Of a stretch of DNA of 64,000 nucleotides, positions 29,643 to 32,500 are shown piece after piece. Made by a program: the position numbers and the translations under genes. Under the pieces are notes generated by a model. It was not told the origin of the DNA. It searched no databases and saw only the letters and a list, made by a program, of their open reading frames with translations. Position 1 is the first letter of the stretch; every line of letters begins with the position of its first letter. The stretch covers positions 744,001 to 808,000 of the forward strand of contig NZ_CANMQS010000001.1 of NCBI RefSeq assembly GCF_947500075.1. The letters are read 5' to 3'. Source of the stretch: an uncultured Sulfitobacter sp. (GTDB lineage Bacteria; Pseudomonadota; Alphaproteobacteria; Rhodobacterales; Rhodobacteraceae).

Positions 29643-30311
29643 CTAGCTGATCAGTTTCATGCCCATACGACGGGAGAACGGCGTACCACCGCCGGGGATC
29701 ACGGATTTCCGCCGCTCCGCCGTCGACAGCAGCTTCATCGGCCAGAACATCTTTGACATATGCCGCCCGCCACTGATCACGGAGGAGGAGCGCTGTTTTT
29801 TCGACACCAGAGGCATCGGCCAGAACATCCGTGACATCCGGCGATCATGGTCCATCAGCGGCCGTTTGGTCTTGTGATCTTTCAGCAACCGCATCCCGAA
29901 CATGGTGGAGACCCGGCCGGGCATCTCCATCCCCGGCAGGGTCAGGAAAAGCGGGTGGTCTTTCAGCACACTTGGCGCTTTCTCCGGCTCCCAGGCGACC
30001 TTGGCTTCTTCCACCACATCGCCCATGTCGATTGTATCGGCGTTCTCGAAAATCTCGCGGGTCAGACGGGCGACGCCAAGGGGCTTGTAGGTTGCGGCAA
30101 CGGCAACAACGGCATTGCCTGCCGCCAGCTTCTTTGCATAGGGCCCCATGGCTGTTTCATGCACCCCCGCGCGCTGCATCTCCATCTCCGCCTTGTCGCC
30201 CGCCACGATGATCTGACGGTTGCGCTTGGGCAATCCCTTGAAGTCGAGCCGCTTCACCGCTTTTTCCGCTGCCGCGACATCGGGGAACACACGTGTAATG
30301 ATTGTTGTCAT
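29643..30311 (-). CDS. puc-operon-linked protein of unknown function with C-terminal MxxMFWPM repeats
   Basis: Start MTTIITRVFPD overlaps the pucC stop (ATGA); C-terminus ...MSRMFWPMPLVSKKQRSSSVISGGRHMSKMFWPMKLLSTAERRKSVIPGGG... Confidence 0.8.
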   Translation of the reverse strand: MTTIITRVFPDVAAAEKAVKRLDFKGLPKRNRQIIVAGDKAEMEMQRAGVHETAMGPYAKKLAAGNAVVAVAATYKPLGVARLTREIFENADTIDMGDVVEEAKVAWEPEKAPSVLKDHPLFLTLPGMEMPGRVSTMFGMRLLKDHKTKRPLMDHDRRMSRMFWPMPLVSKKQRSSSVISGGRHMSKMFWPMKLLSTAERRKSVIPGGGTPFSRRMGMKLIS

Positions 30312-31801: not shown

Positions 31802-31834
31802 ATTGAGCCCGCGCACCGCAGCCGCAGGCTCAAT
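31802..31834 (-). other. stem-loop immediately 3' of pucA
   Basis: ATTGAGCC...GGCTCAAT, 8-bp stem, 17-nt loop, 2 nt beyond the pucA stop on the - strand. Confidence 0.6.
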
Positions 31835-31836
31835 CT

Positions 31837-32193
31837 CTATTGTGTGATCGTCGGCGGCAGATGATCTGCCTGTAACGAAACGTGCTTTTCAGGCATCTGA
31901 ATGATGGCCTGCGCACTTGTCCCGTCAGGAAGGATCACTGTCACTTCGAGCCCGTCCGCTGTGGGCAGGGTGTATGACGCCGTTGCGGCTTCAACATCCG
32001 AAGGCTCAAGCACAGCTGCTGCTGCAACCCGGTCGCCTGTTCCCATAGGAACGCCTTGCAGGAAATCAGAGACCCAAGAGGTATTCTTGACCACCTGAAG
32101 GTGCACGGCAAATGAACCAACTGCGACAGCACCCAGGAAAATGGGAACGCCGACTGTTGGCGAAACAACAAGCCACATTTTTGCATTGTTCAT
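31837..32193 (-). CDS. pucA: light-harvesting 2 alpha subunit with long C-terminal extension
   Basis: MNNAKMWLVVSPTVGVPIFLGAVAVGSFAVHLQVVKNTSWVSDFLQG is an LH2 alpha core; 118 aa in total. Confidence 0.9.
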   Translation of the reverse strand: MNNAKMWLVVSPTVGVPIFLGAVAVGSFAVHLQVVKNTSWVSDFLQGVPMGTGDRVAAAAVLEPSDVEAATASYTLPTADGLEVTVILPDGTSAQAIIQMPEKHVSLQADHLPPTITQ

Positions 32194-32457: not shown

Positions 32458-32475
32458 TGTCACTGTTACTTGACA
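32458..32475. promoter_or_regulatory. PpsR/CrtJ box 1, TGT-N12-ACA
   Basis: TGT CACTGTTACTTG ACA, 100 bp upstream of pucB. Confidence 0.8.
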
Positions 32476-32482
32476 CCGTCAA

Positions 32483-32500
32483 TGTAAATTTTTGTTGACA
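32483..32500. promoter_or_regulatory. PpsR/CrtJ box 2, TGT-N12-ACA
   Basis: TGT AAATTTTTGTTG ACA, 7 bp from box 1. Confidence 0.8.

Follow-up and report, generated by a model that had tools for sequence, protein, structure and literature searches.

An uncultured Sulfitobacter has a single LH2 alpha subunit, with a conserved C-terminal tail shared by relatives

Introduction

LH2 is among the best-studied of membrane-protein rings, and the C-terminus of its alpha subunit faces the periplasm. Alpha chains lengthened at this periplasmic end occur in Rubrivivax and, as PucAb and PucAc, in Rps. palustris. In Rubrivivax gelatinosus, the extension seems to have a part in assembling LH2 (PMC5069747); that of the Rps. 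palustris PucB-LH2 is unstructured (PMC9618040). A reference in PMC4949548 also concerns extended chains. Puc2A of Rhodobacter (Cereibacter) sphaeroides, of the same family, likewise joins an LH2 alpha core to a long C-terminal extension, but the wild-type complex does not contain this polypeptide (PMC9618040).

LH2 complexes also differ in absorption. The B850 band owes its position at ∼850 nm to hydrogen bonds donated by alpha residues 44 and 45; without them it lies at ∼800 to 826 nm (PMC9618040). The loss of these donors underlies the blue shift of LH3 (B800-820) and of the Rps. palustris PucD-LH2 (803 nm), whose alpha chains have 48 to 59 residues (7ze3 is the 59-residue PucD-LH2 alpha). 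The LH2 of Roseobacter litoralis absorbs at 806 nm (PMC12654162) and that of Dinoroseobacter shibae at 804 nm (PMC10890935). The High-800 LH2 of R. denitrificans and R. litoralis and the 804- to 806-nm LH2 of D. shibae come from the same bacterial group as the DNA examined here, a 64,000-nucleotide stretch of an uncultured Sulfitobacter genome (the window) that encodes an LH2 alpha subunit with a long tail.

Results

The reading frame that a first-pass annotation had reported for pucA was found as described, with 118 codons and a stop; it lies on the minus strand, which that annotation had left unstated (Table 1). The identification of its core as LH2 alpha also held. PF00556 (LHC) aligns to residues 3 to 41 above the Pfam cut-off, and solved LH2 alpha chains align to residues 1 to 50 (best, 7ze3, E=2e-11; also 7pbw and 1ijd). 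The ligand histidine, His31, is invariant in the alignment, and residues 12 to 37 form a helix in the AlphaFold model. The operon order on the minus strand is pucB, pucA, pucC, and then a pucDE-like ORF. With an LHC domain, pucB before it, and pucC after it, the protein belongs among the LH2 alpha subunits (PucA; PF00556), and its full-length chain is 12.3 kDa.

Table 1. Features of the puc locus (positions within the window)
Feature	Position	Strand	Evidence
pucA, LH2 alpha subunit, 118 aa + stop	31837..32193	-	ORF; PF00556 E=1.1e-8; PDB LH2 alpha chains
pucA residues 1-47, LH2 alpha core: His31, Ser27, Phe44-Leu45	32053..32193	-	83-relative alignment; dN/dS ∼0.02
pucA residues 48-118, C-terminal tail, net charge -7	31840..32052	-	open and conserved, 94 distinct intact sequences
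pucA residues 72-99, conserved block, predicted beta-hairpin, turn PDGT (89-92)	31897..31980	-	alignment; dN/dS; AlphaFold
pucB, LH2 beta subunit, 50 aa	32206..32358	-	PF00556 E=1.8e-9
pucC, LH2 assembly protein (MFS-like), 476 aa	30308..31738	-	PF03209 E=2.6e-145
pucDE-like ORF, 222 codons, overlaps pucC end	29643..30311	-	operon position only
RNA stem-loop directly 3' of pucA stop	31802..31834	-	-45.6 kcal/mol, z=-2.7 vs shuffles
two TGT-N12-ACA sites, candidate PpsR/CrtJ sites	32458-32475, 32483-32500		pattern search

Other parts of the operon deserve brief comment. The two TGT-N12-ACA sites lie ∼100 bp upstream of pucB with 7 bp between them. The motif alone occurs in the window at near chance frequency, and the telling part is the tandem pair upstream of puc, an arrangement described for PpsR/CrtJ (PMC10890935). 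Against pucB, the NCBIfam model for LH1 beta (NF040862, pufB) gives a score of 67.1, which exceeds the cut-off of 61, and automatic annotation may therefore call this gene LH1 despite the pucBAC operon and the separate pufBA. The pucDE-like ORF contains an internal repeat near its end (MSRMFWPM...SSSVISGG and MSKMFWPM...RKSVIPGG) and scores below the cut-off of every Pfam and NCBIfam family.

In total, four LHC-family matches were found in the genome, which is 99.97% complete: pucBA and a pufBA pair that adjoins two reaction-centre genes (pufLM) elsewhere in the genome. The LH1 alpha reads 55 aa and has no tail. The cell thus has no LH2 alpha other than PucA. Any LH2 ring should be built from the tailed protein, in line with the first-pass expectation of a tail on every ring subunit, and by LH2 topology the tail would be periplasmic, with one copy per alpha-beta unit.

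The long C-terminal extension itself was correctly recognized in the first-pass annotation, and its estimate of roughly 60 residues was slightly low; the tail has 71 residues (48 to 118). The frame is kept in 94 distinct intact relatives of 99 to 123 aa. The tails are mostly acidic, with a mean net charge of ∼-5. Across 83 sequences, residues 72 to 99 have the approximate consensus A.ASYV.P..DG..EVTVILPDGT.A.AILQ, in which Gly91 is invariant and Asp90 (98%), Ala96 (90%), and Tyr74 (89%) are strongly conserved. The linker before this block (residues 48 to 71) varies in both sequence and length, with gaps in the alignment.

For nine disjoint close pairs, dN/dS was ∼0.02 in the core, 0.29 to 0.44 in the linker, ∼0.13 in the hairpin block (confidence interval [CI], 0.06 to 0.25), and 0.18 in the part after the hairpin. 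An earlier estimate from more divergent, partly saturated pairs gave 0.48 for the hairpin block and 0.075 for the core; we prefer the close-pair values, which rest on these nine disjoint pairs only. The hairpin block is under purifying selection, and the dN/dS values and block conservation together indicate that the tail is a translated, selected protein segment, held more loosely than the core.

These data bear on two trivial explanations. That the extension is a sequencing frameshift, as the first-pass annotation had cautioned, or an assembly artefact has next to no chance of being true, as nothing but the unusual length speaks for it, and the same frame and motif recur in 94 distinct intact sequences with purifying selection at the codon level. 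It is also extremely improbable that the tail is tolerated, non-functional read-through. Its evolution is several-fold faster than that of the core, and some lineages have lost it, but dN/dS is ∼0.13 in the hairpin block, and Gly91 stays fixed across 83 sequences with nearly saturated synonymous sites. Frame conservation among homologues, together with selection, rules out a frameshift, an artefact, or chance read-through.

AlphaFold, given the 83 sequences, placed strands at residues 72 to 78, 81 to 87, and 93 to 98 (pLDDT, ∼70), and on the tail alone it placed strands at 81 to 87 and 93 to 98; the mean pLDDT values of the two models were 68 and 62. The centre of the tail is predicted, with moderate confidence, to be a beta-hairpin turning at Pro89-Asp90-Gly91-Thr92, preceded at residues ∼52 to 70 by a short helical or disordered linker and followed by a flexible end. 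Searches with the tail returned nothing better than E=0.16 in Pfam and E=0.17 among PDB sequences, and outside pucA, other proteins of the family gave only marginal matches to it (E>0.003). A ModE/Mop-like fold of three strands was considered and set aside as too weak (Foldseek E=0.65, profile E=0.84). We found neither a Pfam model nor a PDB sequence or convincing PDB fold that matches the tail, and we rejected its assignment to a known domain.

The tail is not an oddity of one genome. In a family sample of 397 genomes, 55 were PucA positive, and in 45 of these, the window's own genome among them, the match reaches into the tail. All of the best 80 loci in the GTDB genome collection have it, among them records of Roseobacter, Tateyamaria, Planktotalea, Thalassobacter, Marivita, Rhodovulum, Tabrizicola, and Dinoroseobacter. 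It is important to note that the GTDB figure is biased toward tailed forms, since the query held the tail and some search patterns were derived from it, and the genome sample is the fairer count. A class-wide sample of 385 genomes contained the tailed form only in the window's own genome and in one of another family, and in ten further genomes with a PucA match no alignment extended beyond approximately residue 59. Judged by these sequences, tailed PucA is the usual LH2 alpha form in LH2-bearing Rhodobacteraceae/Roseobacteraceae.

On a PucC tree, tailed forms group together, and four to five state changes are required, although the deep part of the tree is poorly resolved. One early gain of the tail followed by a few losses is compatible with this tree. 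A few lineages (L161, L163, and L165) have LH2 genes without the tail, so LH2 assembly is not universally tail dependent.

Several records fall outside this general pattern. One complete genome from the window's own genus (G055) gave no match to this PucA; the distribution of LH2 is thus patchy even among members of a single genus. Tailed PucA was also seen outside the family, in a MAG titled Rhizobiaceae (L097) and in another family of the class (G491/L136); mis-binning, horizontal transfer, and an older origin are alternatives for these. In L102 and L126 (G299), the pucA frame is broken near the N-terminus, by assembly error or in a decaying gene. We looked for plasmid-borne relatives of tailed PucA and found none.

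The first-pass annotation had regarded the length of PucA as unusual among LH2 alphas, but the literature already contains other types of extended chain (PMC5069747, PMC9618040). The window tail differs from these in character. The Rubrivivax and Rps. palustris extensions are short and of polyproline or polyalanine, whereas the window tail has ∼70 residues and a conserved predicted hairpin, with the EVTVILPDGT.A.AILQ block in place of Ala/Pro sequence. Tails of the sphaeroides type (L111 to L115) consist of Ala/Pro/Glu repeats, and the complete proteins (L111 to L113) reach 263 to 326 aa; no pucC was found alongside any of the five, and they have Tyr-Tyr or Tyr-His at residues 44 and 45. In contrast to Puc2A, the window PucA is the only LH2 alpha in its genome and its tail is non-repetitive. 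The genomes with the sphaeroides-type protein (G092, G389, G051, G342, and G253) also have a short PucA, making the repeat-tailed form a second PucA.

The window PucA has Phe44-Leu45 and Val at position 41, leaving no hydrogen-bond donors at alpha 44 and 45. Every beta-tailed sequence with an intact core has Phe-Leu at these positions (Tyr-Leu in two), while repeat-tailed forms and all but one short PucA have Tyr-Tyr, Tyr-His, Phe-Tyr, or Tyr-Trp. The exception (L122/L163) has Phe-Leu and no hairpin, which shows that the signature can occur without the tail. Judging from these residues, the window LH2 is probably of the blue-shifted High-800 kind. The Phe-Leu signature fits the R. litoralis and D. 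shibae spectra, a likeness drawn through the tailed PucA of other Roseobacter/Dinoroseobacter records (L055, L060, L062, L063, and L101) rather than through the PucA of those two species; the Roseobacter/Dinoroseobacter LH2 alpha is probably the same kind of protein as the window PucA.

An influence of the tail on spectral type, suggested in the first-pass annotation, did not find support, since the lost hydrogen bonds alone predict the blue shift. The tail could in principle help cause the 804- to 806-nm spectrum if it altered the shape of the B850 site at its periplasmic end, and its near-perfect co-occurrence with Phe/Tyr44-Leu45 would suit such a role. We consider this very unlikely, however. 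Only two of three independent tail differences on the PucC tree accompany a change at residue 45, and a test would need far more events; the short PucA noted above has Phe-Leu without a hairpin; and the 803-nm absorption of Rps. palustris PucD-LH2 is attained with an alpha of 59 residues that, like those of LH3, has no tail of the window type. Given the few independent events and the short Phe-Leu PucA, we take the tail and the blue shift to be separate traits that occur together in one lineage and infer that the spectrum would be set by the lost 44/45 donors, not by the tail itself.

Discussion

Tailed PucA is a known protein in a conserved form specific to one clade, and its tail is set apart from known LH2 extensions by its sequence, its predicted structure, and its operon context. 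In a large group of marine phototrophs, the usual LH2 alpha has a conserved module on the periplasmic side that none of the LH2 structures we found contains. We did not find a description of the tail in the open-access literature, a scope that excludes the R. denitrificans LH2 study (Duquesne et al. 2011), nor a passage on LH2 alpha in the R. litoralis proteomics paper (PMC4103551); the tail may have been noted before.

Our leading explanation, which we hold tentatively and by analogy, is that this sole LH2 alpha, probably of High-800 type, has a clade-specific tail serving LH2 assembly or stability in the periplasm. The core would insert and bind pigment as usual, with one linker and one hairpin contributed by every alpha-beta unit on the periplasmic side. 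Once retained, the tail may aid LH2 biogenesis or ring stability on that face, acting through contacts between neighbouring tails or through an assembly factor such as PucC. We judge this role the likeliest because of the Rubrivivax extension; the analogy is weak, since the two tails have no sequence relationship. A retained tail would have a bearing on the control of ring assembly, stability, and packing in roseobacter-type phototrophs.

Cleavage after assembly and docking are the rivals to this role. The tail may instead be a propeptide or assembly tag that aids insertion, or keeps the subunit in place until the ring closes, and is afterwards removed by a periplasmic protease, so that mature rings carry a short alpha. 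The core stops at the usual LH2 length, and the linker is as variable as a cleavable spacer would be, but no conserved cleavage motif was seen in it, and the constraint on the end beyond the hairpin would be needed in a discarded segment only if it acted before cleavage; we regard cleavage as unlikely. Docking also seems doubtful to us; here the tail would bind some other partner in the periplasm or membrane, such as LH1-RC, a cytochrome, the PucDE-like protein, or an adjacent LH2, and so govern how antennae pack. A selected, mostly acidic segment that is periplasmic by LH2 topology would suit it, but no partner was identified, and the data do not favour docking over self-association.

The nine or so hairpins of a ring could conceivably join edge to edge into a closed periplasmic beta-crown, which we think quite improbable. 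Such a crown would be a second, protein-only oligomerisation element for antenna rings. By arithmetic alone, two to three strands per subunit at ∼4.8 angstrom give a circle of ∼14 to 21 angstrom radius. The ring of alpha helices in nonameric LH2 has a radius of roughly 18 angstrom, close to that of the crown circle.
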